A DNA stretch of 64,000 bases from Rhodocyclales bacterium. Its GTDB lineage: Bacteria; Pseudomonadota; Gammaproteobacteria; Burkholderiales; Rhodocyclaceae. Each line of letters starts with the position of its first letter. The stretch's first letter is position 1. Location: NCBI GenBank assembly GCA_016235165.1, contig JACRLX010000020.1, forward strand, positions 1 through 64,000, read 5' to 3'. A program made the position numbers and the translations under genes. The notes under the pieces are model-generated. The model was not told the DNA's origin, searched no databases, and was given only the letters and a program-made list of their open reading frames with translations. Below, piece by piece: positions 1,779 through 63,819 of this stretch.

Positions 1779-3626
1779 ATGGCCGCATTCGCATTACGTC
1801 GTTTCGCGGCCATTTCGGTACTCCGGGACACCGCGGCAATGCACGTATTCGACGCCAGCGCGCGCGATCAGGACGCCAGTGCCCTGCGCATCGTCCTGAT
1901 TTATGCCAGCTTCGCCGCGCTCTGGATCCTGCTTTCCGACAAGCTGGTCAGCGCCCTGCTGAGCGAGCCTTTTCATGTCCTGCTGGCCAGCATGTTGAAG
2001 GGCTGGCTGTTCGTTGCCATCACCTCGCTCCTGCTGTATGGCCTGATCCGGGGACGCGGGCCAAAAGTCGGCGCCGGCGACACGCCGATTTCGCGCCACG
2101 GCACCCTGTTGCTCGCCACGCTGGCCATCCTGCCATTGGCCGCCGCCGGGATCGGGCACAGTTTCCAGCGCCAGCGCGAAATCCAGCTCGCCAACCTGCA
2201 ATCGATTGCCACCGCGAAAAGCCAGCAGATCGGCGACTGGCTGATCGAACGCCAGGGCGACGCGGAATTGATGCGGATCAGTCGTTTCGTCGCCGACAAC
2301 TTCCGCAACTGGCAAGGCGGCACCGCCAGCGCCGAGCGGAACCTGAAAACCCACATCGATAGCTGGCTCGAACTTCGACCCTACGATGCCCTCAGCCTGA
2401 TCGACCCCGGCGGCGGCCGGCGCTGGCGCAGCGAGCGCGCCCCGCGGGAACCGGCGCCCCAGCTGCAAGCGGCACTCGCCATGGCAAGCGCCGAACACCG
2501 GGTGGTCGCCAGCCCGCCCTACCTCGACACCGCCGGCAAGCGCCGGATCGACTTCATCGCTCCGCTGGAGTTCGCCGGCCCGAGGCCCGCGCTCGCGGTA
2601 CTCCACGTCGATCTGGACAAGCGGTTCCTGCCCCTGGTGCGCGACTGGCCCTATCCCCTGGCCGGTTATGAAGCGCAGCTGCTGCGCGCCGAAGGCGAAC
2701 GCCTGGAGTTCCTCACTCCCATCCCTGGCGAGGGGAGCGGAATCCCCGCGCCGTCACCGACGCTGAAAGACAGCGGGCTGATTGCGGTGCGCGCCGTGTC
2801 CGACACCGCCACCGAACCCATGATGCTGCGGGGCGTCGATCATCGCGGCGCCGCCCAGATCGGCGTGGTGCGCCGCGTACCCGGCACGGACTGGCGGCTA
2901 CTGATCCGCCTCGGCGAAGCAGACCTGTATGCCGCCGCGGCCACGGATGCGGCGTGGATCGCGCTGTCCAGCCTGCTGGCGATGTTCATGGCCCTGACCG
3001 TTTTCGTCCTCCTGCGCCAGCGCGATCGTCTCGGCCTGATGAGCAACATGGTGGCAGCGCGCGAGGAGAAGCTGCGCGCCCTGCAATTGCTCGACGCGAT
3101 CGCCGAGCAGTCGGACGATGCCATTTTCGCCAAGGACCTCGACGGCCGTTACCTGTTGTTCAATCGTGCCGCCGCCGGTTTCGTCGGCAAGCCGGCGACG
3201 ACGGTGATCGGCAAGGACGACCGCGCCCTGTTTCCGGCCGACCAGGCGGCACGAATCCAGGCCAACGACCAGCGCGGCATCAGGGAGGCACGCGTCGTGG
3301 TCAGCGAGGAGCTTCTGGACACCGTGCTCGGGCCTCGCGTATTCCACTCCACCAAGGGCCCGCTGCATGATTCCACCGGCAAGGTCATCGGCAGTTTCGG
3401 CATCTCGCGCGACGTCACCGACGCCACCCGCGCCGAGGAAGAACTGCGCCAGCGCAACGAGGAACTGGAACGTTTCAATCGCGCCACGGTCGGCCGCGAG
3501 CTCGACATGATAGAGCTGAAGCGGGAGATCAATCGCCTCTCGCGCGAACTCGGCCGCGCGGAACCGCATGCGCTGGACTTCGACCGCGCCGAGGGCGCAG
3601 CCTCCGCGCCGACGAAACGCAACTGA
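1779..3626 (+). CDS. Membrane-anchored PAS sensor protein without a kinase domain
   Basis: 615-residue protein. Two N-terminal membrane helices (IVLIYASFAALWILL and a segment ending LLLYGLI) precede a third (HGTLLLATLAILPLAAAGIG). An extracytoplasmic sensor region of about 270 residues, another helix (AWIALSSLLAMFMALTVFVLL), one cytoplasmic PAS domain and a short helix (MIELKREINRLSRELG) follow. That last motif normally leads into a histidine kinase, but the protein ends there. It stops one base before the next gene, a hybrid kinase, so the pair probably works as sensor and kinase. A copy of the dispersed 27-bp repeat (2064-2090) encodes KVGAGDTPI between helices 2 and 3. The ATG at 1839 (MHVFDAS) is an alternative start; neither has a convincing ribosome site. 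Confidence 0.75.
   Translation: MAAFALRRFAAISVLRDTAAMHVFDASARDQDASALRIVLIYASFAALWILLSDKLVSALLSEPFHVLLASMLKGWLFVAITSLLLYGLIRGRGPKVGAGDTPISRHGTLLLATLAILPLAAAGIGHSFQRQREIQLANLQSIATAKSQQIGDWLIERQGDAELMRISRFVADNFRNWQGGTASAERNLKTHIDSWLELRPYDALSLIDPGGGRRWRSERAPREPAPQLQAALAMASAEHRVVASPPYLDTAGKRRIDFIAPLEFAGPRPALAVLHVDLDKRFLPLVRDWPYPLAGYEAQLLRAEGERLEFLTPIPGEGSGIPAPSPTLKDSGLIAVRAVSDTATEPMMLRGVDHRGAAQIGVVRRVPGTDWRLLIRLGEADLYAAAATDAAWIALSSLLAMFMALTVFVLLRQRDRLGLMSNMVAAREEKLRALQLLDAIAEQSDDAIFAKDLDGRYLLFNRAAAGFVGKPATTVIGKDDRALFPADQAARIQANDQRGIREARVVVSEELLDTVLGPRVFHSTKGPLHDSTGKVIGSFGISRDVTDATRAEEELRQRNEELERFNRATVGRELDMIELKREINRLSRELGRAEPHALDFDRAEGAASAPTKRN
2064..2090 (+). repeat. Dispersed 27-bp repeat, copy 1 (in coding sequence)
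   Basis: Matches the core AAAGTCGGCGCYRGCGAYAC followed by GCCGATT. It lies inside the PAS sensor gene in sense orientation and encodes KVGAGDTPI in the loop between membrane helices 2 and 3. Confidence 0.8.
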
Positions 3627-3627
3627 C

Positions 3628-6600
3628 ATGGCCTTCCCGGATATCCGCAGCCTCAGCATCCTGAGCCTGGTTTCCAGCCTGCTGCTGGCCCTGGCCATGC
3701 TGATGCTCGGCCGAATTTGCGGGCGCCAGCCGGCTGTACTCGCCTGGATCAGGGGCGCCGGCCTGCTGGCAGCGGGCTTCGTCCTGATTGCCTTGCGCGG
3801 CATTGCCCACGATGCGCTGAGCATCGTCCTGGCCAACGTTGTCATCGCCAGCGGCGCGGCCTGGCTGTACATGGCCACCCGCCTCACCATCGGCCTGACG
3901 CGCGGTCCGCGCCTGGACATCGCCGCGGGTCTGCTGGTGCTGCTGCTGTTCCCCTACCTGACGTTCATCCAGCCCAGCCTGGGGGCGCGGATATTCGTCA
4001 ATTCGCTGATCATCGCCGGCTTCGGACTGGCCAGCGCCTGGCTCGCCCTGGCCCACAGCGCAAGCCGCCGCGACGATAACCGGCGAATCCTGGCAGCCAT
4101 CGGCCTGGCGTTTGCGATCTGCGGCGGGGTCTACCTGGCGCGCGCCCTGATGACGCCGATTTCGCTCCAGGACGGCAGCCTGATGGCGCTCACCGACGGC
4201 GTGCACAAGGCGACTTTCATCGCCGTATTGCTGCTCAATGCAACGCTGACCCTTAGCGTCACCTACATCGTCGGCTCGCGCACCGAACGCAAGCTGCGCG
4301 CGGCCAATGCACGCTTCGACGCCACCTTCGAGCAGGCCGCGGTGGGCATCGGCACGTTCGACCTCGCGGGAAACTGGATGCGCGCCAATCGCAAGCTGTG
4401 CGCGATGCTCGGGCTCGACGAGCGAAGCTTCGGCGCCACGCCCGAAGGCCAGGCCCAGCTCGCCGACGATTCCATGGCCGACCCGGCCGAACGGCGACGG
4501 ATGCTGGCCGGAGCGATGCCCAGCGCGACCCGCGAACTGCTGCGGCACGATGGCGCCGGAAACCACCTCTGGATGCGGCGCACCACAACGCTGGTCAGGC
4601 GCGCGGACGGCACGCCCGATCACTTCGTCGCCGTGATCGAGGATATCCAGCAGCGCAAGCTGGCCGAGGAGGCGCTGCAAAAATCGCAGGCCGACGCCCT
4701 CGCCGAGCAGGTCAAGGCACGCCGCGCCGCCCTGTCGCTGATGGAAGACGCAGTGGCCGCGCGACTGAATCTGGAAGCCGCGAACCTTGCCTTGCGCGAA
4801 GGCGAAGCCAGCTACCGCGAAATGTTCGGCGCCAATCCACATCCGATGTGGGTATTCGACCTGGAGACCCTGGACTTCCTCGCCGTCAATGACGCCGCGG
4901 TCGCCAAGTACGGCTGGTCGCACCAGGAGTTCCTGGCCTTGAACCTGCGCGACATCCGCGATCCCGATCAAGTGCCACCGATGATCGAATCAATCGCCAG
5001 CGCCGCCGAAAACGCCACCGCAGACGCCGCCGAACGGGGGATCTGGCGTCACCGCACCCGCAACGGACGCGAACTGCTGGTCGAGATCACCGCCCACGGC
5101 ATACAGTACGGTGGGCGCCGCGCCATGGTGGTGCTGGCGCACGACGTGACGCAGCGCCTGCGCTCCGAGGAACAGTTGCGCAAGCTCTCGCTGGCGGTCG
5201 AGCAGAGCCCGGACTGCGTGGTCATCACCGACGTCGATGCCCGCATCGAGTACGTCAACGCCGCCTTCGTGCGGGTCACCGGCTACAGCCGCGAGCAGGT
5301 GATGGGCCAGAATCCGCGCATCCTGCATTCCGGCGGCACGCCGCGTGCGACCTACGAATCGATGTGGCGGACCCTGATGGCCGGGGAGTCCTGGAAGGGC
5401 GAGTTCCACAATCGCCGCGCCGACGGCAGCGACTACATCGAGTTCGCCATCATCACGCCGATACGCCAGACCGATGGCCGCATCACCCACTACGTGGCGA
5501 TCAAGGAAGACGTCACCGAAAAGAAGCGCATCGCCGCCGAGCTCGACGCCCATCGCCATCACCTCGAAGAGCTGGTGGCCAGCCGCACCGCCGAACTCGA
5601 CGAGGCACGCCGGCGGGCCGACAGCGCCAACCAGGCCAAGAGCACGTTTCTCGCCAACATGAGCCACGAAATCCGCACCCCGATGAACGCCATCATCGGC
5701 CTCACCCACCTGTTGCAGCAATCGCCGCTGAACGACGCGCAACGCGAGCGGCTGAGCAAGATCGACGGCGCCGCCTACCACCTGCTGGCCATCATCAACG
5801 ACGTGCTCGACCTGTCCAAGATCGAGGCTGGCCGCATGCAGCTGGAGGACACGGAGTTCCAGCTCGACGAACTGATGGAGCAGGTCCGCACCCTGATCGC
5901 CGCGGATGCCGAGGCCAAGGGCCTGTCGCTGCGCATCGAGTTCGGCGCCACGCCGCGCTGCCTGCGTGGCGATCCCACCCGCTTGCGCCAGGGCCTGCTC
6001 AACTTTGCCGGCAATGCACTGAAGTTCACCGAACGAGGCGGCATCGTCCTGCGCGCCATTGCCGAAGCCAGGGAAAACGATGGGGTACTGCTGCGGCTGG
6101 AGGTGGAAGACACCGGTATCGGCATCGCGGACGACACGATGGCGACGCTGTTCGCCGCCTTCGAGCAGGGCGACCGCTCGACCACGCGCAAGTATGGCGG
6201 CACCGGCCTCGGCCTCGCGATTACCCGCCGCCTGGCGCGCATGATGGGCGGCGACGCCGGCGGTGAAAGCCGTCCCGGCGTCGGCAGCCGCTTCTGGCTC
6301 ACCGCCCGCCTGCGCCACGGCAGCGGCCAGCCACCGCGTGCGCCGGCCGCGCCGCCAAGCAGCGGGCCGGTCGCGGAACCGGTAGACAGTTGTGCCGGCA
6401 GGCAGATCCTGCTGGCGGAGGACAACCCGATCAACCGCGAAGTCGCGACCGAGCTGCTGCACGCCATCGGACTGCGGGTGGATGTCGCGGAAAACGGCCG
6501 CCAGGCGCTGGAGCGCATCGCCGGCGCAACCTACGATCTGGTCCTGATGGACATGCAGATGCCGGTGCTCGACGGTGTCGAGGCCACGCGCGCGATCCGC

Positions 6601-7182
6601 GCCCGGCCCGATGGCGGCACGATTCCGATCATCGCCATGACCGCCAACGCCTTCGACGACGACCGCCGGCGCTGCTTCGAGGCCGGCATGAACGACTTCA
6701 TCGCCAAGCCGGTGGATCCGGCGCAACTGCATGCCATCTTGCTGAAATGGCTGCCGGCGCGCTCGCGCGCGGCCAGCCCCGGCGCGAACGCGGAACCGGT
6801 GCCACCCATCTCGCCCGACGCGATGCTGCGCCAGCGCCTGGCCGCCATTCCCGGCCTCGACCTTGAGACCGGCCTGGCCATGACGCTCAATCGCTTCGTC
6901 TTTTACCTGCGCATCCTGCGCCTGTTCACCGACAAGAATCGCGATGTGCCGCGCCAGCTGCGGGACGCCACCGCACAGGGCAAGCTTGGGAGCGTGCAGG
7001 AGATCGCCCACGGGCTGAAGACCGCGGCCGGCACCATAGGCGCAATCGACATGAGCCGCCAGGCCGATGCCTTGATGCAGGCCGCGCGCGAAGGCAACAG
7101 CGGACCGAACGCCACCGCCCTGCGCCTGGCCGACGATCTGGAACAACTGATCCGCCAGCTGGACGCCGCACTGGCGATCTGA
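3628..7182 (+). CDS. Hybrid sensor histidine kinase (7TM-PAS-PAS-PAS-HisKA-HATPase-REC-Hpt)
   Basis: 1184-residue phosphorelay kinase. About seven membrane helices occupy residues 1-210. PAS domains follow at roughly 225-350, 415-530 and 535-650. The HisKA helix contains SHEIRTPMNAIIGL, and the ATPase domain has the GGTGLGLAI box. The receiver domain has the acidic pair in LLAEDNPINREV, the phospho-acceptor Asp in LVLMDMQMPVLDG and the conserved Lys in FIAKPVDP. A C-terminal Hpt domain keeps its histidine in EIAHGLKTAAGTIGA. All four phosphotransfer modules are therefore intact, and a separate DNA-binding regulator is expected elsewhere. The start one base after the upstream stop and the shared strand indicate an operon. 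The ligand is unknown. Confidence 0.9.
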   Translation: MAFPDIRSLSILSLVSSLLLALAMLMLGRICGRQPAVLAWIRGAGLLAAGFVLIALRGIAHDALSIVLANVVIASGAAWLYMATRLTIGLTRGPRLDIAAGLLVLLLFPYLTFIQPSLGARIFVNSLIIAGFGLASAWLALAHSASRRDDNRRILAAIGLAFAICGGVYLARALMTPISLQDGSLMALTDGVHKATFIAVLLLNATLTLSVTYIVGSRTERKLRAANARFDATFEQAAVGIGTFDLAGNWMRANRKLCAMLGLDERSFGATPEGQAQLADDSMADPAERRRMLAGAMPSATRELLRHDGAGNHLWMRRTTTLVRRADGTPDHFVAVIEDIQQRKLAEEALQKSQADALAEQVKARRAALSLMEDAVAARLNLEAANLALREGEASYREMFGANPHPMWVFDLETLDFLAVNDAAVAKYGWSHQEFLALNLRDIRDPDQVPPMIESIASAAENATADAAERGIWRHRTRNGRELLVEITAHGIQYGGRRAMVVLAHDVTQRLRSEEQLRKLSLAVEQSPDCVVITDVDARIEYVNAAFVRVTGYSREQVMGQNPRILHSGGTPRATYESMWRTLMAGESWKGEFHNRRADGSDYIEFAIITPIRQTDGRITHYVAIKEDVTEKKRIAAELDAHRHHLEELVASRTAELDEARRRADSANQAKSTFLANMSHEIRTPMNAIIGLTHLLQQSPLNDAQRERLSKIDGAAYHLLAIINDVLDLSKIEAGRMQLEDTEFQLDELMEQVRTLIAADAEAKGLSLRIEFGATPRCLRGDPTRLRQGLLNFAGNALKFTERGGIVLRAIAEARENDGVLLRLEVEDTGIGIADDTMATLFAAFEQGDRSTTRKYGGTGLGLAITRRLARMMGGDAGGESRPGVGSRFWLTARLRHGSGQPPRAPAAPPSSGPVAEPVDSCAGRQILLAEDNPINREVATELLHAIGLRVDVAENGRQALERIAGATYDLVLMDMQMPVLDGVEATRAIRARPDGGTIPIIAMTANAFDDDRRRCFEAGMNDFIAKPVDPAQLHAILLKWLPARSRAASPGANAEPVPPISPDAMLRQRLAAIPGLDLETGLAMTLNRFVFYLRILRLFTDKNRDVPRQLRDATAQGKLGSVQEIAHGLKTAAGTIGAIDMSRQADALMQAAREGNSGPNATALRLADDLEQLIRQLDAALAI

Positions 7183-7454
7183 GGCGCTCCCACACCATAT
7201 CGTGTCCTGCGATCGCCGTGTCGCCGGCGCCGACTTTCGCCACCCTCCTTTAACGTGAAACAACACGCTGGGATGCTGCCGGTTTCGAGCGCAGCGAGCC
7301 GTTCAGGAACCCCCGCGAGGGGGGCGAAGGGGGGCGGGCCGAGCTTGCCCGCTCCGGACAAGGCAAAGGCACGGGCGGTTCATGCTCCGTGGCTGGCTGT
7401 CGAAGTCATGAGCGATAGAATGCCGGCCAGCGCGCCGTTCGCGCCACCACGACC
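7183..7454. other. Intergenic region with a dispersed repeat copy
   Basis: 272 bp between the hybrid kinase and the FAD dehydrogenase. It holds repeat copy 2 (7211-7237) and a G/C-rich stretch near 7310-7360 with runs of C then G that could fold. No gene or clear promoter was recognised. Confidence 0.5.
7211..7237 (-). repeat. Dispersed 27-bp repeat, copy 2 (intergenic)
   Basis: On the minus strand it reads AAAGTCGGCGCCGGCGACAC followed by GGCGATC, identical to the inferred consensus. It lies just downstream of the hybrid kinase stop codon, outside any gene. Confidence 0.85.
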
Positions 7455-9071: not shown

Positions 9072-10025
9072 CCATTCCAGCTCCCAGCGCACGCAGGGGT
9101 CGAGCGCGGCGACACAGCGCGCCACCAGACTGCGCAGGGCCTCGCGGTCGCTTGCGTCGCGGCCGAGCAACCAGCGCGGCAACGGCCCCCGCGGATGGAA
9201 GTTCCATTCCGTCGGCGCGACGATGAAGTAATCCGCCACGGTATCGCCGTCGAGCACGATCTCGTGCATCAACAGGCCGCGCGCCGTCTCCACCAGCGCG
9301 CGACCGGCTCCGGGCGCCACCGCGGTCGAACTCGCCGTGCCGCCAGCGCCGACTTTTGTCCGTCCCTCGGCCCAGTCGCGCAACTCCGCCAGCCGCGCCT
9401 GCCAGCGCTGCGCGCATACCCCGCCCGCCGCGCCGCCGCGCCGCGCCAGGGCGCCGGTTTCGGCGGCCCCGCCCAGCCAGGTCGGTTGCACGCAAAATGC
9501 CGCGTCCAGGCGTGGCCAGGCCTTTCGCGACGCTTCGGCATCAATGGCCGGCAGGAAGGTCGGCGCTACTTCCCCGCAATCCGGAAGCGCATCGAGCCGG
9601 CGCACCAGGGCGGCGATCCGCCCATCATCGAGCAGGGCAGCGATCGGCTGACGCTCGTCCCGCGCCAGCCAGCCCACTGCGGCGGCAAATTCGTCTTTCA
9701 GGGGAGGCTGGTCCAGCAGTGGCGGCAGGTCGAGCAGCCAGCGCCAGAGGTGCTCGCGCATGACTTCGGCGGCAACGGCTGGATCGATGTGCGCCGCAAC
9801 CTCATCTCCGCGCGCCGCCGCCAGGGCAAGTTCTGCGGCCCGCCCCTGCGCCCTGCCGCACAAGGCAAACAGCAGGGGCACCAGGCGCACCGCCGCGTCC
9901 GCCGCGCGCCCGCACAGCATGCGCCCCACTTGCGGACGCTCGCTCCCCACCTCGACGGAGTCAACCCGTCCCTCGCGCACCGTCATCCGGAGCCGGACGC
10001 AGCCCGGATCGATGCCGCCGTTCAT
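9066..10025 (-). CDS. hoxV: Hydrogenase assembly protein HoxV/HupK
   Basis: 319-residue degenerate relative of the [NiFe]-hydrogenase large subunit. The C-terminal region keeps the outline of a large subunit (EWNFHPRG, then DPCVRWELEWL). The metal-binding Cys-x-x-Cys pairs are broken, as in HupK/HoxV proteins, which are thought to hold the Fe(CN)2CO centre during assembly. The start codon overlaps the hoxJ stop by four bases (ATGA), so the two genes are translationally coupled. In C. necator hoxV lies between hoxT and hypA; here it sits at the far end, behind hoxJ. Repeat copy 3 (9334-9356) adds TKVGAGGTAS before the conserved C-terminal part. Confidence 0.8.
   Translation of the reverse strand: MNGGIDPGCVRLRMTVREGRVDSVEVGSERPQVGRMLCGRAADAAVRLVPLLFALCGRAQGRAAELALAAARGDEVAAHIDPAVAAEVMREHLWRWLLDLPPLLDQPPLKDEFAAAVGWLARDERQPIAALLDDGRIAALVRRLDALPDCGEVAPTFLPAIDAEASRKAWPRLDAAFCVQPTWLGGAAETGALARRGGAAGGVCAQRWQARLAELRDWAEGRTKVGAGGTASSTAVAPGAGRALVETARGLLMHEIVLDGDTVADYFIVAPTEWNFHPRGPLPRWLLGRDASDREALRSLVARCVAALDPCVRWELEWL
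9334..9356 (-). repeat. Dispersed 27-bp repeat, copy 3 (inside hoxV)
   Basis: Minus-strand sequence begins AAAGTCGGCGCTGGCGGCAC and continues GGC. It is in sense orientation and encodes KVGAGGTA in a poorly conserved linker of HoxV. Confidence 0.75.
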
Positions 10026-16758: not shown

Positions 16759-18372
16759 TCATGTCGCGCCTCTCGGCTGGGTGGCGAGCAAGGCGCGTCC
16801 TTTGTCGGTGGTACGGTAGCGCTGATTCCTGCTCGTCGGTTTGTCCGGAATGGTCATTGCCAGCAGATTGGCGGCCAACAGGGGCTTGAGTACCTGGTTC
16901 CGAAACTTGGTGCGGTCAGCACGTTCCGCGATGGCCATCAGATCGGCAATTTCCGCATCTGCCGAGCATTTGCGCAGGATTTCAACCTGGTGCTGACTTA
17001 GTGCCGACTTGGTGCCGACTTGGTCCCAACCTGGTCCCGACTCAGTCCCGGCTGCCACCGTCCCGCCAGCGCCGACTTTTCCAGGCTCCTGCCCCGTTGC
17101 CGACTCGGCAACCTCCCGTGCTGCCGGGTGAACAGGCAAACGGACCAGAAAATAGCTGTGATCCTCGTCAAACTCGAATTCCGCCGGGGGCGAACCATTC
17201 TTCGCCATCGCTTCGATGATCTTGGGGATGCCGGTGCAGCGGCCTTCGGTAAATTCCAGTTCCTTGAGAAATTCGCCAATGCGGCGATTGCGATAACGCC
17301 GGGGCTGGGCACGTCCCGCTTGCAGTTGATCCAGCCGAACCGAACGATCCGGGCCGGGGTAGCTGATGATCATCATCTCATCGCGCTCAAGCCGGATTTC
17401 GATGGGTTCGCGAGTGTCGTACCCTCTGTGGTAGACGGCATTGACCACGGCCTCCTCGATGGCCGCGTAAGGGAAATTCTCGACGCGCGTCGCTTCGGCG
17501 CGATCGGGATGCTTGATAACGGTTTCGGTGATCAGGTTACGCTTGATGTAGTCGAGCGCGTCGCGGGTCATGCGCGGAATCGGGCCTTTGAAGACCTTTT
17601 CCGAAAATTTGTCGCCGCCCGGGCCTTCCTTGGGAAACCAGACCACATCGATCTGCATGACGGGAAAGAAGCGCCAGGGCTCGGGGTTGAACATCATCAA
17701 GCCGACATTGAGCGGCATCGGCATCTCGCTCGGTCCGCCGATCACGCCCATCGCCCGCCCCGCCTCAAGCACGGAAAGCGCGGGGGTTTGCGTGGCGAGC
17801 TCGCTGCCCACTTGTTGCAGATAGTCCTGCATCAGCTCGCGGGACAGGTCTGCAAGCTTGGCTTGCTGGTTGACGCGGTCATCGTGGGGAATGGTCGTGG
17901 CCAGCGACATCAACTCGGTTTCATCCGCCCCTTTGGCGCGAATGGTACTGGAGCCTTTGCGGATGTAATAAGCGTAATCCCTGCTGTCTTTGCCCAGGCT
18001 GATTTTTGCCTTGTAGGGTCGCGACGGCCCGCCGAGCGCCCACAGCACGAGAATATGCCGCCCATCGATGTCCACCGGTACAGCCAGCGGGTGGTAATAC
18101 GGCGCCATGGCCGAAAAGCCAAGCTCAAGCAGCTCTTTCTGGATGGCATCGATTTGTGCCGGGTCAAGTCCAACCGGCGGCAAAACCGGTCGTCCCTTGT
18201 CTTCGGCAACCCCCAGCACAATGTAGCCGCCGCCCAGGTTGTGAAAATCGTTAGCGAAGGCGCAGAGGGTGTGCAGAACGGCCTCGGGATTCCAGCCGGC
18301 CTTGAATTCAAGACGCTCCCATTCGACAGGCTTGCCGTTGAGGAGGTCGTTGATGTTGATGGGGAGCGGCAT
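16759..18372 (-). CDS. AlbA_2 / COG2865 putative DNA-binding ATP-binding protein
   Basis: 537-residue protein of the COG2865 (RecG-like regulator) group. The N-terminal AlbA_2 (Schlafen-type) domain shows VEWERLEFKAGWN and FANDFHNLGGGYIVLGV. The central HATPase-like part contains AIEEAVVNAVYHRGYD, and a C-terminal winged helix ends in RYRTTDKGRALL. Between them a variable linker carries repeat copy 4 (KVGAGGTVAAG) and six tandem 11-bp units (16981-17046). These proteins often appear with defence or restriction genes, but the role of this one is not established. It lies between the SWIM gene and a NucS-like nuclease-domain gene on the same strand. Confidence 0.78.
   Translation of the reverse strand: MPLPININDLLNGKPVEWERLEFKAGWNPEAVLHTLCAFANDFHNLGGGYIVLGVAEDKGRPVLPPVGLDPAQIDAIQKELLELGFSAMAPYYHPLAVPVDIDGRHILVLWALGGPSRPYKAKISLGKDSRDYAYYIRKGSSTIRAKGADETELMSLATTIPHDDRVNQQAKLADLSRELMQDYLQQVGSELATQTPALSVLEAGRAMGVIGGPSEMPMPLNVGLMMFNPEPWRFFPVMQIDVVWFPKEGPGGDKFSEKVFKGPIPRMTRDALDYIKRNLITETVIKHPDRAEATRVENFPYAAIEEAVVNAVYHRGYDTREPIEIRLERDEMMIISYPGPDRSVRLDQLQAGRAQPRRYRNRRIGEFLKELEFTEGRCTGIPKIIEAMAKNGSPPAEFEFDEDHSYFLVRLPVHPAAREVAESATGQEPGKVGAGGTVAAGTESGPGWDQVGTKSALSQHQVEILRKCSADAEIADLMAIAERADRTKFRNQVLKPLLAANLLAMTIPDKPTSRNQRYRTTDKGRALLATQPRGAT
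16981..17046 (-). repeat. 11-bp tandem repeat, six units, inside a coding sequence
   Basis: 66 bp made of six imperfect 11-bp units (plus-strand unit such as GCCGACTTGGT, two adjacent copies identical). Eleven is not a multiple of three, so gain or loss of one unit would shift the reading frame of the AlbA_2 gene before its C-terminal winged helix. Confidence 0.8.
17054..17079 (-). repeat. Dispersed 27-bp repeat, copy 4 (inside AlbA_2 gene)
   Basis: Minus-strand sequence begins AAAGTCGGCGCTGGCGGGAC. It is in sense orientation and encodes KVGAGGTVA in the linker just upstream of the 11-bp tandem units. Confidence 0.75.
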
Positions 18373-19523: not shown

Positions 19524-20972
19524 TCAATGCACCGTACACACCATGCACGGGTCAAAGCTGCGCACCACGTGATGGATGGCCGCCGGCAACTGGCCATCGG
19601 CGCTGGCCGCCAAACCGGCCAGCGCCTGCTCCAGCGCCCCCGGCTGGCCCGCTGCATCGCGCGGTGAAAAGTTCCAGGTGGTCGGCGCGATGATCTGGTA
19701 ATTGTGGATGCGGCCGCGGCGCACGGTCAGCCAGTGGCCCAGCGAGCCGCGCGCCGCCTCGATCAGGCCGACGCCCGCGGTTTCATCGGCCGGCTGCGCC
19801 GTGATGCACCAGGGCTCGCCGGGCACGATCCGGTCCAGCCAGGCTTCCATCTGCGGCAGCACCAGGGTGATTTCCAGCAGGCGGGCGACGACGCGCGCCG
19901 CGACGCTGCCCCCGCCATCGGCAAGGATGTCGCGCACCAGCGGATGGCCGGCAACCGCCTGGCGCGCCAGCGCCCCGGTCTCGACCACCTGCCCGCCCAG
20001 GCGCGGCGACTTGCACCAGGAATAGGCGCCTTCCTTGTCCGCCACCGGCAGCGTGCCGCCCTCGGCCGGATGTTGCGGTCGCCCGGTCGCTGCATACCAG
20101 GAATGCGCCGTGTCTTCGGCGATGGCGCCGACATCCAGCGCCAGCCGGCGGCCTTCGTGCCAGACACCGGGCGCGAACAAGCGGCCTTCGTCCAGCGCGT
20201 AACAGCCGTAGCTCATGTAGCGTTCCGTCCCCCGCCCCAGGCCCCACAGCCCGAGGTCGTCGGCTATCGCGAGGAAGCGGCGCAGATCGCCCTCCTGCGC
20301 CTGATCCCGCCAGGCGTCGAGCTGGGCGCGGCCGGTCAGCGCGGCGAATTCCTCCAGCGGCGCGCCAAAGGTGGTGCGTTCGAGGAAACCGCGAAACTCG
20401 CGCAGGATGCGGTGCAGGCGAAACACCTCCGAACTTTGCAGCGGCCGCGTCGAGCCACCGGCCTGCACCGCCAGCGTGTGCGGCCATTTTCCGGCCAGGA
20501 GGCCCATGGACTGCATGAAGCGGGCGCGCGCCGGCAGCACCTCGTTGGGTGCGCTGCCCACGGTGGCGCGAAAGCGCTCCGCCGCGCCGTGGTACCAGCG
20601 CCGACTCTTGTACTCCTCGCGAGCGAAGTCGGGCATGAAGAAGAGGTAAAAGTGCGTCAGGTGGTCGGCGAGGTTTTCCGCCGCCAGGGTCAGGTTCGCT
20701 GCATGGCGGCCGTTGGGCGGCGGCACGATGCCCGCGGCATCAGCCAGCGCCAGCGCGGCCGCGGCCGATTGCGCCACCGAGCAGATGCCGCAGATGCGCG
20801 GCACCAGCACCAGGGCATCGGCCGGCAGCTTGCCCTGCAGGATCTGCTCGAAGCCGCGATACAGCGGCGAATTGACATAGGCCGCGACTACCCGCCCGGC
20901 ATCGATGTCGAGCGTGACTTCGAGGTCGCCTTCGACGCGATTGAAGGGGCCGACTATCCTCCGCGTGCTCAT
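19524..20972 (-). CDS. hoxC: Regulatory [NiFe]-hydrogenase large subunit HoxC
   Basis: 482-residue catalytic subunit of the cytoplasmic H2-sensing hydrogenase. Ligands of the Ni-Fe site are present in RICGICSVAQ and the C-terminal DPCMVCTVH. The protein ends exactly at that histidine, with no C-terminal extension; this is the hallmark of sensor hydrogenases, which need no maturation protease. The ATG overlaps the hoxB stop by four bases. HoxC binds HoxB, and the complex signals to HoxJ. It is the last gene of the continuous hox/hyp run; 130 bp downstream the unrelated NucS-like gene begins. Confidence 0.95.
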   Translation of the reverse strand: MSTRRIVGPFNRVEGDLEVTLDIDAGRVVAAYVNSPLYRGFEQILQGKLPADALVLVPRICGICSVAQSAAAALALADAAGIVPPPNGRHAANLTLAAENLADHLTHFYLFFMPDFAREEYKSRRWYHGAAERFRATVGSAPNEVLPARARFMQSMGLLAGKWPHTLAVQAGGSTRPLQSSEVFRLHRILREFRGFLERTTFGAPLEEFAALTGRAQLDAWRDQAQEGDLRRFLAIADDLGLWGLGRGTERYMSYGCYALDEGRLFAPGVWHEGRRLALDVGAIAEDTAHSWYAATGRPQHPAEGGTLPVADKEGAYSWCKSPRLGGQVVETGALARQAVAGHPLVRDILADGGGSVAARVVARLLEITLVLPQMEAWLDRIVPGEPWCITAQPADETAGVGLIEAARGSLGHWLTVRRGRIHNYQIIAPTTWNFSPRDAAGQPGALEQALAGLAASADGQLPAAIHHVVRSFDPCMVCTVH

Positions 20973-21961: not shown

Positions 21962-23390
<1,429 letters not shown>

Positions 23391-23394
<4 letters not shown>

Positions 23395-25103: not shown

Positions 25104-26167
25104 CAGCAAATCCGCGGCAACTGGTCGCCTGCCAGCCAATCGACGATGCGCTTGCCGCCGAAGGCCGTGGTCATCTGCACGAAGTGGTGGTCGTCGGCGA
25201 TCACGTCGCCGATGAAGCAGGCATCGCGGCCCAGCGGATGGGCGCGCATGGCATTCAGCAGCAGCTCGCCGTCGAGCGCATTGCAGATCACCACCAGTTT
25301 GCCTTCGTTGGCGACGTAGAGCGGATCGAGGCCGAGAAATTCGCAGGCGGCGGAGACCACCGGCTTCACCGGTATCGCCTGCTCGTAAAGCATCATGCCG
25401 ACGCCCGATTGCGTGGCGATTTCGTTGAGCGTGGCAGCCAGCCCGCCGCGCGTCGGATCGCGCAGGCAGCGCAGGCCGGCGCCGGTCGCCAGCATGGCCT
25501 CGATCAGGCCGTTCAAGGCCGCCGTGTCGGATTCGATGGGCGCGTCGAAGCTGAGGTTCTCGCGCTTGCTCATGATCGCCACGCCATGGTCGCCCAGCGA
25601 ACCGGAAACCAGGATCACGTCGCCGGGGCGGGCCAGGCTGCCGCCGAGGTCCAGCCCATCTGGGAGCACGCCGACCCCAGTGGTGGTGATGAAAATGCCG
25701 TCGCCCTTGCCGCGTTCGACCACCTTGGTGTCGCCCGTCACCACCGGCACGCCGGCTTCCTTCGCGGCGCGGGCCATGGACTCGACGATGCGCGCAAGAT
25801 CCGCCAGCGGGAAACCTTCTTCGAGGATGAAGCCGGCGGCAAGGTAGAGCGGCCTCGCGCCCATCACCGCGACGTCATTCACCGTGCCATGCACCGAGAG
25901 GCAGCCGATGTCACCGCCGGGAAAGAACAGCGGCGAGACCACGTGCGAATCGGTGGCCATCACCAGCCGCCCCGGGCGGCCGTTGAGAGTCGGCGCTGGC
26001 AACACGGCGCCGTCGTTGCCCTGGCCCAGGTATTCGTTGCCCAGGTGTTTGGCAAACAGCTCGGAGATCAGTTGCACCATCGAACGCCCGCCGGAACCGT
26101 GGGTCATATCCACACGCCCCTGCTTCAGATCCAGCGGCCGCACGTAGCCTCGTTTTACCTCGCCCAT
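25103..26167 (-). CDS. hypE: Hydrogenase maturation protein HypE
   Basis: 354-residue ATP-dependent dehydratase that turns a carbamoyl group on its C-terminal cysteine into thiocyanate, the source of the cyanide ligands. The PurM-like fold is visible: MTHGSGG near the N-terminus, NDVAVMGARP, and GDVILVSGSLGDHG. The protein ends in the conserved LPRIC, with the acceptor cysteine last. The ATG (MGEVKRGYV) shares one base with the hypD stop; a longer reading frame upstream lies inside hypD and was not used. Confidence 0.95.
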   Translation of the reverse strand: MGEVKRGYVRPLDLKQGRVDMTHGSGGRSMVQLISELFAKHLGNEYLGQGNDGAVLPAPTLNGRPGRLVMATDSHVVSPLFFPGGDIGCLSVHGTVNDVAVMGARPLYLAAGFILEEGFPLADLARIVESMARAAKEAGVPVVTGDTKVVERGKGDGIFITTTGVGVLPDGLDLGGSLARPGDVILVSGSLGDHGVAIMSKRENLSFDAPIESDTAALNGLIEAMLATGAGLRCLRDPTRGGLAATLNEIATQSGVGMMLYEQAIPVKPVVSAACEFLGLDPLYVANEGKLVVICNALDGELLLNAMRAHPLGRDACFIGDVIADDHHFVQMTTAFGGKRIVDWLAGDQLPRIC

Positions 26168-27294: not shown

Positions 27295-27530
27295 GCGGCG
27301 GCAGCGTCCGCAGCGTCTGCATTCATTTCGGCGAACAGCGCCAGCGTCTTTTCCGCCTCCTCGGGGTCGAGTCTGGTCAGCGCATAGCCGACATGCAGGA
27401 TCACGTAGTCGCCAACCTGCACGTCCGACAGCAACGCGAGCGAAATCTCTTTCCTGACCCCGCCGAGATCAACAATCGCCGTGTCGTTGGCGCCGACTTC
27501 TATTACTTTGACAGGTAGAGCCAAGCACAC
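27291..27530 (-). CDS. hypC: Hydrogenase maturation chaperone HypC
   Basis: 79-residue HypC. The function-critical Met-Cys N-terminus is obtained only with a GTG start at 27530 (MCLALPVKVIEV), preceded by GGAGG with an eight-base spacer. A longer ATG frame adding eight residues would bury Cys2 and is rejected. HypC binds HypD and the large-subunit precursor through Cys2. Repeat copy 5 (27474-27500) encodes EVGANDTAI in the strand normally covering this variable position, so the gene appears to have absorbed or converged on the repeat. The C-terminal tail is alanine-rich (ADAADAAAA). Confidence 0.92.
   Translation of the reverse strand: MCLALPVKVIEVGANDTAIVDLGGVRKEISLALLSDVQVGDYVILHVGYALTRLDPEEAEKTLALFAEMNADAADAAAA
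27474..27500 (-). repeat. Dispersed 27-bp repeat, copy 5 (inside hypC)
   Basis: Minus strand reads GAAGTCGGCGCCAACGACAC then GGCGATT, a close match over the full 27 bp. It is in sense orientation and encodes EVGANDTAI at residues 10-18 of HypC. Confidence 0.7.
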
Positions 27531-28952: not shown

Positions 28953-29908
28953 CGCGCCCCGAGCCTGGCTTCGAGTTCGGCAACTCGCCTCTGCAGCGCA
29001 TCCACGATGGCGAGCTTTCTGGCCGCCGTGTCGCGGGCGCCGACTTCCAGCCACTTCAGCCACTCGTCCATGCCTTGCCCCGTGGTCGCCGAGACCTGGA
29101 TCACCTCGATGCCGGGATTGACGCGGCGGGCGAACTCGATCGCGGCATCGACCTTGAAGCTCAGGTAGGGCAGCAGGTCGCACTTGTTGAGCAGCATCAG
29201 GGTCGCGGCGCGGAACATGTCCGGGTACTTGATCGGCTTGTCCTCGCCTTCGGTGACGGAGAGGATCACCACCTTGTGCGCCTCGCCGAGGTCGAAGGCC
29301 GCCGGGCAGACCAGGTTGCCGACGTTCTCCACCATCAGCAGCGAATCCTCGGCCAGCGCCAGCTTTTCCATGGCGTGGCCGACCATGTGGGCGTCGAGGT
29401 GGCAGCCCTTGCCGGTGTTGATCTGGATCGCCGGCGCGCCGGTGGCGCGGATGCGTTCGGCATCCTGGCTGGTCTGCTGGTCGCCCTCGATCACGGCCAC
29501 CGATGCCTTGCCCTTGAGCATCTCGATGGTCTTGCACAGCAGCGTGGTCTTGCCCGAGCCGGGGCTGGAAACCAGGTTCAGGGCGAAGATGCCGCGCCCG
29601 GCCAGGCGCTCGCGATTCTGCTGCGCGTAGGCGTTGTTCTTGGCCAGGATGTCCTGCTCGATCTGCACCATGCGCTTCGCGCCGATGCCCGGCGCGTGGG
29701 AATGGGCAGGGACATAGCGATGGGCGTGATCGTGCGCGTGGTCGTGGCCATGCCCGTGCCCGTGCTCATGCTGGTGATCGTGGTCATGGCTGTGCCGGGT
29801 GCCATCGTCATGCACGTGCTCATGCCCATGTTCGTGGTCCTCGCCGTGATGGTGGTCATGGCCGTCGATCTTCACTTCGCCGCTGCCGCAGCCGCATGTC
29901 GTACACAT
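28949..29908 (-). CDS. hypB: Nickel-insertion GTPase HypB
   Basis: 319-residue GTPase that delivers nickel with HypA. The N-terminus MCTTCGCG is the high-affinity nickel motif. It is followed by a long His/Asp-rich nickel-storage stretch (about residues 17-70). The G domain has Walker [12 protein letters not shown], the metal site region [14 protein letters not shown] and NKCDLLPY. The C-terminal extension beyond the G domain includes EVGARDTAA from repeat copy 6, then a helix ([18 protein letters not shown]). It starts eight bases after the hypA stop. Confidence 0.95.
29021..29047 (-). repeat. Dispersed 27-bp repeat, copy 6 (inside hypB)
   Basis: Minus strand reads GAAGTCGGCGCCCGCGACAC then GGCGGCC. 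It is in sense orientation and encodes EVGARDTAA in the HypB C-terminal extension. Confidence 0.7.
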
Positions 29909-33064: not shown

Positions 33065-33679
33065 TCATCCCACGCACCCCAAAACCCGCGAATCGCCAAT
33101 ACGGCTCGCAGCCTCGGCCGACGGACGCCCGGCCTCGTAGGCGGACATTCCTAACGCCGTATCACCAGCGCCGACTTTCGATTCACGCGCCTCGACCGCA
33201 AAACCCCAGTCGCGCAAAGCCGCCACCGCCGCCGCCACGGCATCGTCGAGCCGTGCCTTGACCACATCGCGCAGGCTGCCGCCGTAGTCTTCGAGTTCCT
33301 CGGGCTGGACGCCGATCAGCAACAGCTTTTCCGGCAATTGCCCGGTGAGGTCGGCGGCGGCGATGACTTCCTGGAAGCCGGTCTGGTGCAGGCTCATCTT
33401 CTTGGCGCCCATGAAGCGCGGCACCTCGTCGCCTTCAACACGCTTCATGGTGCCCGGCGGCAGGCCGTAGTCGATGGCATCGAACACGATCAGGCGCTTT
33501 GCGCCCTGCACGTAGGGCAGCAGGTAGAGGCCCTGGGTGCCGCCGTCCATCACCGTCACGCCCGCCGGCACCTGCCATTCCGCCGCCAGCTTTTCGACGC
33601 AGCGCACGCCGAAACCCTCGTCGGCCCACAGCAGGTTGCCGATGCCGAGCACCAGCACCTCGCAGCGCAGCTCGTCCAT
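33065..33679 (-). CDS. hoxM: Hydrogenase maturation endopeptidase HoxM
   Basis: 204-residue nickel-dependent protease that removes the C-terminal peptide of HoxG after metal insertion. Conserved parts are VLGIGNLLWADEGFGVR (metal-binding Asp/Glu), VMDGGTQGLYLLP, VFDAIDYGLPPG and the His in MSLHQTGF. The family C-terminus (AYEAGRPSAEAASRIGD) follows SKVGAGDTAL from repeat copy 7, which sits in the variable linker. The ATG at 33679 (MDELRCEV) is five bases after the hoxZ stop. Confidence 0.92.
   Translation of the reverse strand: MDELRCEVLVLGIGNLLWADEGFGVRCVEKLAAEWQVPAGVTVMDGGTQGLYLLPYVQGAKRLIVFDAIDYGLPPGTMKRVEGDEVPRFMGAKKMSLHQTGFQEVIAAADLTGQLPEKLLLIGVQPEELEDYGGSLRDVVKARLDDAVAAAVAALRDWGFAVEARESKVGAGDTALGMSAYEAGRPSAEAASRIGDSRVLGCVG
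33153..33178 (-). repeat. Dispersed 27-bp repeat, copy 7 (inside hoxM)
   Basis: Minus strand begins AAAGTCGGCGCTGGTGATAC and continues GGCGTT. It is in sense orientation and encodes KVGAGDTAL before the conserved HoxM C-terminus. Confidence 0.8.
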
Positions 33680-44815: not shown

Positions 44816-44850
44816 GGCCAGTGCCAGACAGTTCCAGTTTGGCCTCATTT

Positions 44851-44875
44851 TCGCCGTCCCGCTGGCGCCGACTTT
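44851..44875 (-). repeat. Dispersed 27-bp repeat, copy 9 (intergenic)
   Basis: Minus strand begins AAAGTCGGCGCCAGCGGGAC and continues GGCGA. It lies about 95 bp past the stop codon of the membrane-protein gene at 44969. Confidence 0.75.
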
Positions 44876-47208: not shown

Positions 47209-47284
47209 GGACTAACTCCTGGGCTGGCCATATGGCAGCCATTGTAGTCAAAATTGGCATGGCCCGCCAGCGCCGTATCGCAAC

Positions 47285-47310
47285 CGCGCCGTATCTCCGG
47301 CGCCGACTTT
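47285..47310 (-). repeat. Dispersed 27-bp repeat, copy 10 (intergenic)
   Basis: Minus strand begins AAAGTCGGCGCCGGAGATAC and continues GGCGCG. It sits between the ThDP-enzyme stop (47343) and the antitoxin start (47208), in the probable antitoxin promoter region. Confidence 0.75.
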
Positions 47311-47342
47311 CACTCAGGCGATCACCGCGACACGCGGCGGAG

Positions 47343-49001
47343 TCACGGCGCAATTTTCCGCTTCAGAAACCTCGCCACCGGCCGCGGCAGGCCTTCGAGC
47401 GAGCCGAGGATGTGCGGCAGCAGCTTGAGCTTGAGGCCGGCCAGCGAGGGCGGCACCATGGCCTCGATCAGGTGCGGGCCGGAGCTGGCCAGCGCCTGCT
47501 CCAGTGCGCGGGTGAAGTCCTCGGCGGTCTCGGCGCGCACCGAGGGCACGCCCATGCCCTGCCCCAGTTGCGCGAAGTTCAGCACCGGGCCGTGCAGGTC
47601 GAGCTGGCTTTTTGCCTTCGGCCCCGCCTCCTCGGCGCCGACTCGGTTGAGTTCGACATTGAGCACCGAATACGAGGCATTGTTGAAAATGATGGCGATG
47701 ACATTGAGCTTTTCGCGCGCCAGGGTCCATAGCGCCTGGATGGTGTACATCGACGCGCCGTCGCCGATAAGCGCCAGCACCGGGCGATCCGGGCAGGCGA
47801 TGGCGGCGCCCACGGCATTGGGCAGGCCCTGGCCGATGGCGCCGCCGGTCAGGGTGATCAGGTCGTGGCGCGGCGCGCCGGCGGTGAACTTGCCCAGCAT
47901 CAGCCCCGAGGTGATGGCCTCGTCGATGAGGATGGCATTATCGGGCAGCAGGTGGCCGACCGCCTTGCAGACCTTTTCGGCGCTGAGCTTCTTGCCGCGT
48001 GGCCGGCTGGGTCGGTCGGGCTTTGCGAGAGCCGGCGCCGAAGAGTCGGCGCTGACGGCACGGCAAAGCGCCTGCAAGCTGGCGGCCGCATCCTGCGCCG
48101 GACCGGCCAGCTCGTGCAGGGTGCAGGTTTCGGGCACCAGGTAGCTCTGCTTGCCGGGATAGGCGAAGAAGGACACCGGCGCCTTGGCGTCGACCAGCAC
48201 CAGGTGGTCGATGTCGCGCAGTTGCACGTTCGCCAGTTCGGCCAGATAGGCGATGCGCTCCACGGCCGGCAGGCCGGCGCCGCGTTCCAGGCGCGTGGGA
48301 AAGACCTCGCAGTGCAGCTTGGCGCCGGTCTTCGCCGCGATGCGCGCCGCGGCCAGCAGCGCCGGCTCGCGCAGCGCGCTGTGGCCGAGCAGGAAGGCCA
48401 CGCGCTTGCCGGATTGCAGCACCGCCGCGAGCGTCGCGATCGTGGTTTCCTCGGCCACCGGAGCGGCGGCTACGGGGCGCGCCAGCTCGGGCACGCCGCC
48501 CTCGCCCCAGGAGACATCGGCGGGCAGGATCAGCGTGGCCACCTGGCCGGGCCGCGCGCGCGCCGCGGCGATGGCGTCGGCGGCGTCCTTGCACAGATCG
48601 GCGGTGGACTTCGAGGTCCGCAGGAAGCCGGGCGAGACATTGCGCGCCACGGTCTCGATGTCGGATTGCAGCTGCGCATCCAGGGGCACGTGGTAGGTGG
48701 CGTGGTCGCCGACGATGTTGATCACCGGCACCTTGCCCTTGCGCGCATTGTGCAGGTTGGCCAGGCCGTTGCCGAGGCCGCAGCCCAGGTGCAGCAGCGT
48801 GGCGGCCGGCTTGTCGGCCATGCGCGCGTAACCGTCGGCGGCGCCCGTGGCCACGCCCTCGAACAGGCACAGCACGGCACGCAGCCGCGGCGCGGAATCC
48901 AGCGCGGCGACGAAATGCATCTCGCTGGTGCCGGGGTTGGTGAAGCAGACCTCGACCCCGGCATCGACCAGGGTGCGCACCAGCGCATGGGCTCCGTTCA
49001 T
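47343..49001 (-). CDS. Thiamine-diphosphate enzyme, acetolactate synthase / benzoylformate decarboxylase-like
   Basis: 552-residue ThDP enzyme. The catalytic Glu lies in LFEGVATGAADGYAR. The cofactor motif starts at GDGASMYTIQALWTL and ends at the FNNASY asparagines. The central domain is short and lacks an obvious FAD site. The closest families are acetolactate synthase-like large subunits and benzoylformate decarboxylase; the substrate cannot be told from sequence. AGAGGACCACAG precedes the chosen ATG (MNGAHALV); an ATG six codons upstream is also possible. It starts 50 bp after hybE on the same strand, so it may belong to the hydrogenase operon. Confidence 0.82.
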   Translation of the reverse strand: MNGAHALVRTLVDAGVEVCFTNPGTSEMHFVAALDSAPRLRAVLCLFEGVATGAADGYARMADKPAATLLHLGCGLGNGLANLHNARKGKVPVINIVGDHATYHVPLDAQLQSDIETVARNVSPGFLRTSKSTADLCKDAADAIAAARARPGQVATLILPADVSWGEGGVPELARPVAAAPVAEETTIATLAAVLQSGKRVAFLLGHSALREPALLAAARIAAKTGAKLHCEVFPTRLERGAGLPAVERIAYLAELANVQLRDIDHLVLVDAKAPVSFFAYPGKQSYLVPETCTLHELAGPAQDAAASLQALCRAVSADSSAPALAKPDRPSRPRGKKLSAEKVCKAVGHLLPDNAILIDEAITSGLMLGKFTAGAPRHDLITLTGGAIGQGLPNAVGAAIACPDRPVLALIGDGASMYTIQALWTLAREKLNVIAIIFNNASYSVLNVELNRVGAEEAGPKAKSQLDLHGPVLNFAQLGQGMGVPSVRAETAEDFTRALEQALASSGPHLIEAMVPPSLAGLKLKLLPHILGSLEGLPRPVARFLKRKIAP

Positions 49002-49051
49002 CTGTGGTCCTCTCGACATGACGCCGCAATTCGCGGCGCTTGCCGGCAAGC

Positions 49052-63300: not shown

Positions 63301-63701
63301 CGCAGCCATTCGCGGGCCGCAACGCCGGGAACCGGGAATTCGGCATCGGCCGGCAGCGCGATGCCGCCGGCCCGCTCGCGAAGGGTACCGAGCTTGTCGA
63401 GGGTCAGCAGCACCGCAACCACATGCTTGCAGTCCTCCTCGACCGGACACATGCAGACGCCCTCGATATCGCTGATCTCGCCCTGACGATCCCGGTTCAG
63501 CCAGAGGGCAACGCCGTAGGGCTCCGCCAAGCTCCCCTGCACCAGCGCCTCGACGTGGATCTCGCCGGGCTGTTCGCGCACCGACTTGATGGTCACCCGT
63601 TCTTCGGCCGCGTAGTTGCGGCCTCGCTGCAAGGTTACCGCGCTGAAATTACCCCCCGCAATATCGAGCAGGCGGCTGGCGGAGGTGGAAGTTCGAGGCA
63701 T
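60348..63701 (-). CDS. SWIM/SNF2-family DNA helicase (HepA-like)
   Basis: 1117-residue SNF2 ATPase. The N-terminal SWIM finger is CMCPVEEDCKHV (about residues 83-94). The helicase core has motif I GILADDMGLGKTVQTL, motif II MDEAQFIKN and motif III SLTGTPLENHLGELW. The second lobe has LLFSQFTSML, FLISLKAGGTGLNLTAAD and ARAHRIGQDKPVFVYKL. Such proteins remodel DNA- or RNA polymerase-bound complexes; the precise role is unknown. It lies 55 bp downstream of the region before the transferase gene on the same strand. Repeat copy 11 is about 90 bp upstream of its ATG. Confidence 0.92.
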   Translation of the reverse strand: MPRTSTSASRLLDIAGGNFSAVTLQRGRNYAAEERVTIKSVREQPGEIHVEALVQGSLAEPYGVALWLNRDRQGEISDIEGVCMCPVEEDCKHVVAVLLTLDKLGTLRERAGGIALPADAEFPVPGVAAREWLRELGDRIAPPARDKDDAARVVYLLHPGDPPNLRVARSRPLKRGGYGKPTAYRPQPYDLAGSRTHRSLVTDADIAPLRLFLALQSGGGYFYSDAVDLTGETGALLLRLALATGRLHLDGLVETSLRAGPSRAAVWHWTHDAQGRQRLRLDLPENFEVVATQPAFYLDPADGQLGELHSAVAPQIVDQLLRTPPLNEADVLLVRQQLPRLLGEQESFLPLPQMPDAVPAGTPVLRLVLTRGGFRHSGGARLEERMALIRPWFDYPDGVSVAAVQAAPPFLRQRIGDRWQTLQRDVEAEARGWHLMYAAGLQSWGHHYGPQLVAEDAQEALLPRRNDVVGWLDFLNEGVPALEAEGVTIEFAEDFPYSIAQAEDWFVAVEESVGSDWFDLDLGVRVGGERVSLVAPLLRLLREEPDLAGMVRGLDDTQNFPVAIDERRILPVPAGRLKAWLLPLLEFLDDERPRLARHHAATLAGLDALPTQWIGGEELRQLGHRLRDFRGIEHRPPAPGFLATLRPYQQDGLDWLQFLREYGLAGILADDMGLGKTVQTLAHLHLEKTSGRADRPSLVVATTSLMANWRNEAAQFTPGLKVLTLHGKDRAELFSEIAAADLVLTTYPLLVRDRETLLAQDWHLLVMDEAQFIKNPKAQSHQVARLLKSRHRLSLTGTPLENHLGELWAQFDYLMPGLLGNGKRFTQVYRTPIEKLGDEETRNRLSERVRPFLLRRTKEQVLNDLPPRTEMVRWVEIEGGQRDLYESLRVAFDRKLRHALVEQGVGRSQIMIFDALLKLRQICCDPRLVRLPAAEALVRKGHAHSAKLATLMEMLVELLDEGRKVLLFSQFTSMLALIEAELEKLVIPYVKLTGQTRDRETPIDDFQKGRVPLFLISLKAGGTGLNLTAADTVIHYDPWWNPAVEEQATARAHRIGQDKPVFVYKLMTQGTVEEKILALQDRKRGLADQLMRQGAGTAAGGNLLTASDLDVLFQPLA

Positions 63702-63791
63702 GCGAGCGTACTTTGGGCAAAGGGGTCGAAGTTAGCACAAGCGACCGCGTCTGTCGCCGTTGGCGATGTCGGCCAGACGAGCGGGAAAAGG

Positions 63792-63819
63792 AAATCGCCG
63801 TCTCGCCAGCGCCGACTTT
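63792..63819 (-). repeat. Dispersed 27-bp repeat, copy 11 (intergenic)
   Basis: Minus strand begins AAAGTCGGCGCTGGCGAGAC and continues GGCGATTT. It lies upstream of the SNF2 helicase gene. Confidence 0.8.

Follow-up and report, generated by a model that had tools for sequence, protein, structure and literature searches.

The window analysed here is the first 64,000 nucleotides of contig JACRLX010000020.1 of a Rhodocyclales bacterium (G000:C39:1-64000; genome G000 comprises 4.47 Mb), and the subject is a short DNA word repeated across it. The sites of the word are presented in Table 1; they occur on both strands, within open reading frames (ORFs) and in the gaps between them. A sequence-only reading of this DNA had listed ten copies of a 27-bp repeat. 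All ten are present, 0–3 bp from the starts it gave, but the list was incomplete, and our profile adds the sites at 20583, 22311, 25986 and 48042. Concerning the two weaker half-matches of that reading, the profile scan finds no site at 37408, and the one at 39151 corresponds to a marginal 14.5-bit match (39143-39168) with 5 of the 22 fixed positions wrong. The site at 48042 is overlapped by a 17.7-bit match at 48028-48053.

Table 1. Sites of the repeated word in the window, with strand, profile score and sequence context
Position	Strand	Score (bits)	Context
2064..2089	+	36.8	In PAS-domain sensor ORF 1839-3626, sense frame 0
7212..7237	-	39.9	Gap between predicted genes 3628-7182 and 7455-9071
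9331..9356	-	38.8	In ORF 9066-10025; 22/22 fixed positions
17054..17079	-	33.3	In ORF 16759-18372
20583..20608	-	29.1	In nickel hydrogenase large-subunit ORF 19524-21758; scored as intergenic because the crude gene finder overlooked this ORF
22311..22336	-	31.8	In sigma-54-type response-regulator ORF 21958-23394
25986..26011	+	33.7	Antisense in hypE (25103-26167)
27475..27500	-	33.1	In hypC (27291-27530), about 10 codons past the start
29022..29047	-	28.9	In hypB (28949-29875)
33153..33178	-	35.8	In hydrogenase maturation protease ORF 33065-33679
44850..44875	-	32.7	Predicted gap, overlapping putative ORF 44471-45502
47285..47310	-	30.7	Start region of RES-domain ORF 46292-47353; scored as intergenic by the gene finder
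48042..48067	+	31.7	Antisense in thiamine-pyrophosphate enzyme ORF 47343-49226
63794..63819	-	40.6	About 90 bp upstream of SNF2-type helicase ORF 60348-63701; 22/22 fixed positions

The word and its abundance

The profile has 26 columns with the core AAAGTCGGCGCTGGCGNNACGGCG; it was iterated from the window and contig C17 (464 kb of G000) and converged on 103 sites. The repeat is dispersed, as the sequence-only reading had it, but the real unit is 24–26 bp long instead of 27 bp, with 22 fixed positions and two free ones (profile positions 16 and 17). Beyond the word the information in the flanking profile columns is near zero, so no longer unit is repeated. The consensus is sharp: among 376 sites of at least 18 bits in carrier genomes, the number of mismatches at the 22 fixed positions is 0 in 71, 1 in 97, 2 in 97, 3 in 65, 4 in 31, 5 in 14 and 6 in 1.

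The word is also abundant. At a threshold of 20 bits there are 14 sites in the window and 91 in the 464 kb of G000, the latter extrapolating to about 900 per genome, compared with none for column-shuffled (three tries) or reversed profiles; at 8 bits, 111 real sites compare with 2–5 (shuffled) and 10 (reversed). The window contains 17 matches of at least 14 bits against 0–2 in 20 order-3 Markov versions of it, and a 400-kb contig 83 against 2–4 in five order-5 Markov versions. The 20-base pattern of the sequence-only reading has 62 exact matches in the 4.47-Mb genome and none when read backwards, and the most over-represented 12-mer in the 464 kb is AAAGTCGGCGCT. The repeat is thereby confirmed as real and genome-wide, at counts far above chance, as that reading had proposed from the density in the window.

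Distribution across genomes

The word is restricted to one part of the family. The 20-base pattern has matches in all 31 genomes of the genus, in one of six other family genomes (a single match) and in none of 24 genomes of other families. The exact word AGTCGGCGCTGGCGNNACGGCG is found at least once in 59 of 249 family genomes and at least ten times in 25, which belong to six genera (g1, g32, g62, g70, g88 and part of g43); read backwards, it is absent from every one of the 249. Both orientations are equally represented (90 and 96 exact matches in G000, 148 and 154 in G002), and within g1 (nine genomes) the count varies from 1 (G016) to 302 (G002). Of 399 genomes sampled across the wider order, 15 contain a match, four of them being family members, and 11 of 386 others have one to three; elsewhere in the order the word is only sporadic. 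Among named genomes, exact 24-base matches occur in at least 114 stretches, of which at least 37 are from Sulfuritalea; Rhodocyclaceae bacterium, Sulfurisoma and Rugosibacter are also represented. Genus g1 is probably Sulfuritalea: over 2 kb, C17 shares 90.5% identity with a Sulfuritalea sp. record. NCBI assigns Sulfuritalea and Rugosibacter to Sterolibacteriaceae.

The density of sites of at least 16 bits per Mb is 205 in G000, 183 in G018, 185 in G002 (evenly spaced stretches), 200 in G153, 200 in G259 and 34 in G016; the values for G091 (240), G061 (230), G165 (249) and G199 (350) come from stretches picked at known matches, as do parts of the others, and lean high, with 4–24 sites each. 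No dialect is seen, the fixed positions being identical across all genomes compared for density. A switch of dialect in motif-poor G016 was considered and rejected: its enriched 12-mers are unrelated, and no substitute word is evident in 297 kb. Some word-poor genomes contain clusters of 2–4 exact sites (G304:C3 and C14, G466:C24, G108:C50, G183:C148), and more such clusters are found in G109:C104 and C557 and in G076:C1:564-585 kb; these look as if whole segments had come from carriers, or may be metagenome binning errors.

Concerning the history of the word, an rpoB protein tree was built for 25 genomes (5 of 30 had no rpoB match, including the sole members of g32 and g62). Genera g1, g88, g70, g43 and g47 form one clade (support 100/100), and G016 stands beside the carrier G009 (support 93/91). 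Carrier status, taken as at least ten matches, changes at least four times on this tree, and one gain with three losses costs the same as three gains with one loss. A single gain is favoured on account of the shared long consensus and of one place upstream of rpoB, at a distance of about 1.15 kb, that is orthologous between genomes; 14 of the 25, belonging to g1, g88, g70 and g43, carry a site there that scores at least 30 bits. This site is eroded in G016 (23.4 bits) and G209 (19.2 bits), and nine of the 25 genomes, among them the carriers G099 and G177 as well as the four outgroups, have nothing above 14 bits there.

Placement in genes, gaps and the chromosome

Placement was scored for the 376 carrier sites with our own crude gene finder. 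Sites prefer intergenic DNA: 110 (29%) are intergenic against 11.5% noncoding DNA, a 2.5-fold enrichment, this share being somewhat too high since the gene finder overlooked at least one ORF (the hydrogenase large subunit). A further 18 sites overlap a gene end and 248 lie within genes, where there is a clear preference for frame: 101, 3 and 26 sites in the three sense frames (130 in total) and 72, 37 and 9 in the antisense frames (118). The favoured frames encode K-V-G-A-G-D-T-A and I-A-V-S-P-A-P-T, that is, small and flexible residues (consensus translated by eye), and the disfavoured ones are rich in arginine. The 104 intergenic sites with a called gene on either side favour neither promoters nor divergent gaps (61 tandem, 25 convergent, 18 divergent). 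There is also no replication-strand bias in the complete genome G002, where 29 sites are leading and 35 lagging (64 sites, with 8 near the origin or terminus omitted).

Looking at contig C17, the sites are evenly spread apart from one large gap, a site-free stretch of 61 kb (G000:C17:265000-326347) with nearly all genes on one strand; the coefficient of variation of site spacing is 1.43, compared with 0.80–1.21 in random placements. Ten proteins of this stretch were scanned: a carbamoyltransferase, two asparagine-synthase-like proteins, a capsule synthesis protein, a nucleotidyltransferase, two DegT aminotransferases, an ATP-grasp protein, an acetyltransferase and one without a match. Because of this content the stretch is identified as a predicted surface-polysaccharide locus, and the word is absent from it. 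Fewer sites are also found in low-G+C bins, as is partly expected from the composition of the word; under-representation in acquired or diversifying loci is based on one locus and these bins.

In the window there is no good site between 33179 and 44849. This stretch contains a toxin-antitoxin-like cluster of small genes (37492-39879; HI1420-type antidote, HVO_A0114, PIN domain), 80-nt repeats in or near that cluster (39057-39136 and 39949-40028), and an ORF of 1383 amino acids (40199-44350) with no Pfam match at E 1e-4. A separate intergenic repeat of about 200 nt, whose two copies (27563-27815 and 32842-33046) are 86–89% identical in two blocks, flanks part of the hydrogenase maturation cluster.

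Gain, loss and retention at orthologous places

A total of 770 site pairs could be compared between genomes; they are not independent and were taken in both directions, and 82 with flank identity below 0.60 were not tabulated, leaving 688. At flank identity of at least 0.80 the site is kept in 272 of 294 pairs (104 distinct query places), and in 250 of 258 once partners poor in the motif (G016 and the g43 species concerned) are excluded. In only one of the 688 pairs does the partner have a gap of at least 15 bases across the site. Fourteen of the 22 lost pairs at the higher identity are ungapped, five of these representing one place in the rpoB neighbourhood. Ungapped partners that lack the site differ from it at 5–13 positions, the flanks predicting 2–5; in these losses the mean number of mismatches is 13.0, 8.2 and 8.8 in three identity bins, against 2.1, 3.3 and 4.7 predicted from the flanks; the clearest replacement (c17:205383) differs at 13 of 26 positions without a gap, between flanks about 90% identical. 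Since gaps are so rare and ungapped losses block-like, the copies were written in place, not inserted, and were then retained or replaced en bloc. Also, no target-site duplication or extended flank similarity is seen at the sites examined.

G018, the closest relative at about 87% identity, retains 21 of the 24 sites that can be compared. The word is constrained at the level of DNA: third codon positions are identical to G018 in 94% of cases in constrained motif columns (n=88) and in 68% in the flanks (n=589), measured on kept coding sites, which favours the motif side. Sites are kept in 10 of 12 comparisons with anchored loci of other named genomes, in 2 of 10 with G016 and in 0 of 1 with other genera. 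Of 24 places compared in G016, 18 align without a gap, 12 of them scoring below 14 bits. Protein homology as the cause of the copies was rejected: as the sequence-only reading noted, they lie beside unrelated genes, and the 18 different protein-coding or gap contexts, the several frames on both strands and the retained third codon positions do not follow from homology alone.

Interpretation and alternatives

The sequence-only reading had left open a mobile element, a nucleoid or replication signal, or an uptake signal. Of these an uptake signal appears best supported, given that copies turn over in place, prefer certain frames, are enriched between genes, are retained across the clade and are absent from the polysaccharide locus; the mobile element and the replication signal of that reading are not borne out. 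The word is probably an uptake signal maintained by biased transformation; it would be the third of its kind, of independent origin and unusual length. A surface receptor of the natural-transformation machinery would prefer the word on the organism's own DNA; kin DNA bearing it would be taken up more often and recombine into the recipient, and recombination would spread or restore the word (molecular drive). Copies would then pile up where gene function tolerates them, that is, between genes and in frames giving small or flexible residues. The organisms would accordingly be competent, and the word would be kept by the uptake bias and read by a receptor that is probably one of the minor type IV pilins.

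Several observations weigh against this reading. With 22 fixed positions the word is much longer than known uptake words. Just two of five comparable sites are kept against G002, and the carriers G099 and G177 lack the site upstream of rpoB. Close inverted pairs are rare, with 6 places spread over 5 of the 31 Sulfuritalea genomes. The presence of ComEC in 44 of 44 genomes, PilQ in 22 of 22 and DprA in 21 of 22 counts in favour of uptake, but these competence genes are found in carriers and non-carriers alike and so do not tell the two apart; DprA was not found in the carrier G005. ComEA (TIGR00426) is above the cut-off in two of 22 genomes, G199 and G071 (one carrier and one non-carrier), and not in G000. 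The weaker ComEA matches elsewhere, mostly in frames of about 800 amino acids, probably represent another helix-hairpin-helix protein, presumably Tex. ComP_DUS pilins are present in 42 of 44 genomes, both carriers and non-carriers, and no receptor was identified; as candidates, these pilins and their neighbours were rejected, as no lineage of them tracks the motif across the 44 genomes.

The sharp 24-bp consensus common to six genera, retention at orthologous places, constraint at silent positions and the even spread along C17 save for one gap would also be expected of binding sites for a lineage-specific intracellular DNA-binding protein (a nucleoid, recombination or segregation factor) under ordinary selection. 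We consider this unlikely, though deserving of attention. Sites are not concentrated at promoters or in divergent gaps; the lack of strand bias in G002 counts against Chi-like or FtsK-guiding words, and a replication or segregation word was rejected on this ground; the frame preference shows sites settling where the encoded protein can accommodate them; and the word is wholly lost in some species of a genus and not in others. A packaging or transfer signal of a gene transfer agent, a transducing phage or a vesicle route would spread the word by the same population-genetic logic as uptake. Exact sites do occur on 8 viral_contigs records, of which L147 carries 5 sites in about 14 kb and L152 carries 7 in about 13 kb, more densely than the host, and the sporadic sites in genomes of other families sometimes number 2–3 per contig; these records, however, may be host DNA or a prophage edge, and such machinery is not known to require a 24-bp word at such density, so that this origin seems improbable. 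A plasmid-borne signal was rejected, as a 30-nt query gave five weak plasmid matches (E limit 1), the best at E of about 0.1.

Insertion of a short mobile element, in genes as well as in gaps, would explain many near-identical copies in both orientations, but the empty-site signature is missing from the ortholog alignments, which rule out insertion in the pairs sampled, and there is neither target-site duplication nor information in the flanks; we give it hardly any weight. Transcription terminators, or another element acting at the RNA level, are a very remote prospect as well: a few perfect inverted pairs would form hairpins followed by T runs, but most sites are single and genic, in sense and antisense alike, and inverted pairs are rare. 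In two head-to-head pairs of G002 (G002:C1:2869149-2869197 and 3611777-3611826) the arms are exactly complementary, even at free or off-consensus positions, and both run into T-rich DNA; these are likely terminators built from two sites.

If the word is an uptake signal, this third case, in free-living Betaproteobacteria, would show that self-selective transformation evolves repeatedly and outside hosts, and the system could test why self-selective uptake evolves, whether as a mating barrier, through drive or from receptor mechanics. The motif-poor sister species would let the receptor be found by comparison of gene content.

Comparison with known systems

Chi and KOPS (FtsK-orienting polar sequences) are words of about 8 bp with strand-biased orientation, and the density of Chi is similar to that of the present word. 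They are likewise short and genome-wide, whereas the present word has 24 bp and is unbiased. Repetitive extragenic palindromic (REP) and bacterial interspersed mosaic elements (BIME), and repeats of the miniature inverted-repeat transposable element (MITE) type, are also short, dispersed and present in many copies; in contrast, the present unit has no palindrome, insertion signature or transposase link, and the sequence-only reading was right that it is not a classical REP hairpin.

No earlier report of the word was found in the open-licence PubMed Central literature: no paper there contains the strings GTCGGCGCTGGCG or CGCCAGCGCCGAC, reports an uptake sequence or signal for Rhodocyclaceae or Rhodocyclales, or links Sulfuritalea with natural transformation. 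The term-matched passages of Frye et al. 2013 (PMC3630211) mention neither Rhodocyclaceae nor Burkholderiales. In a passage of Helsem et al. 2025 (PMC12616744), Neisseriaceae and Pasteurellaceae are stated to be the sole families with known sequence-specific DNA uptake, both being rich in host-associated bacteria.

According to passages of two sources (PMC2397512, PMC7371117), the DNA uptake sequence (DUS) of Neisseriaceae, with its receptor ComP, resembles the present word in having hundreds of copies in both orientations, in genes and in gaps, with enrichment in the latter; in being stable at orthologous places, with new copies opposite unrelated sequence in relatives; and in being missing from acquired DNA and capsule-type loci. 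In Neisseria, as here, missing sites in ungapped relatives differ beyond the expectation from their flanks (part of Treangen et al. 2008, PMC2397512); the same part describes close inverted pairs acting as terminators as common in the known cases and unnecessary for uptake. The DUS differs in being a denser word of 10–12 bp with a CTG core, unrelated in sequence, with frequent inverted pairs, several dialects and experimentally shown uptake.

The uptake signal sequence (USS) of Pasteurellaceae is a longer composite word, with a 9-nt core and downstream segments reaching up to 32 nt (a passage of PMC12616744). It resembles the present word in this, in favouring particular locations within coding DNA and in arising in pre-existing sequence; an intergenic excess and an origin without insertion of the whole sequence are described for Pasteurellaceae in part of Bakkali 2007 (PMC1939737). 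Its core is different, its uptake is experimentally shown, and its downstream segments are AT-rich and weak, whereas here they are G+C-rich and strong (ACGGCG in 22–24 of 24). Set beside these two, and with slightly less assurance than for uptake itself, we think it likely that the word marks a third, independently evolved family-level system of self-DNA uptake, whose word (24 bp, 22 positions of it fixed) would be the longest known among strongly constrained uptake words. Such a system would be stable, with no change of dialect across six genera of environmental bacteria, and its natural loss lines (Sulfuritalea G016 and three g43 species) could be used to find the receptor.

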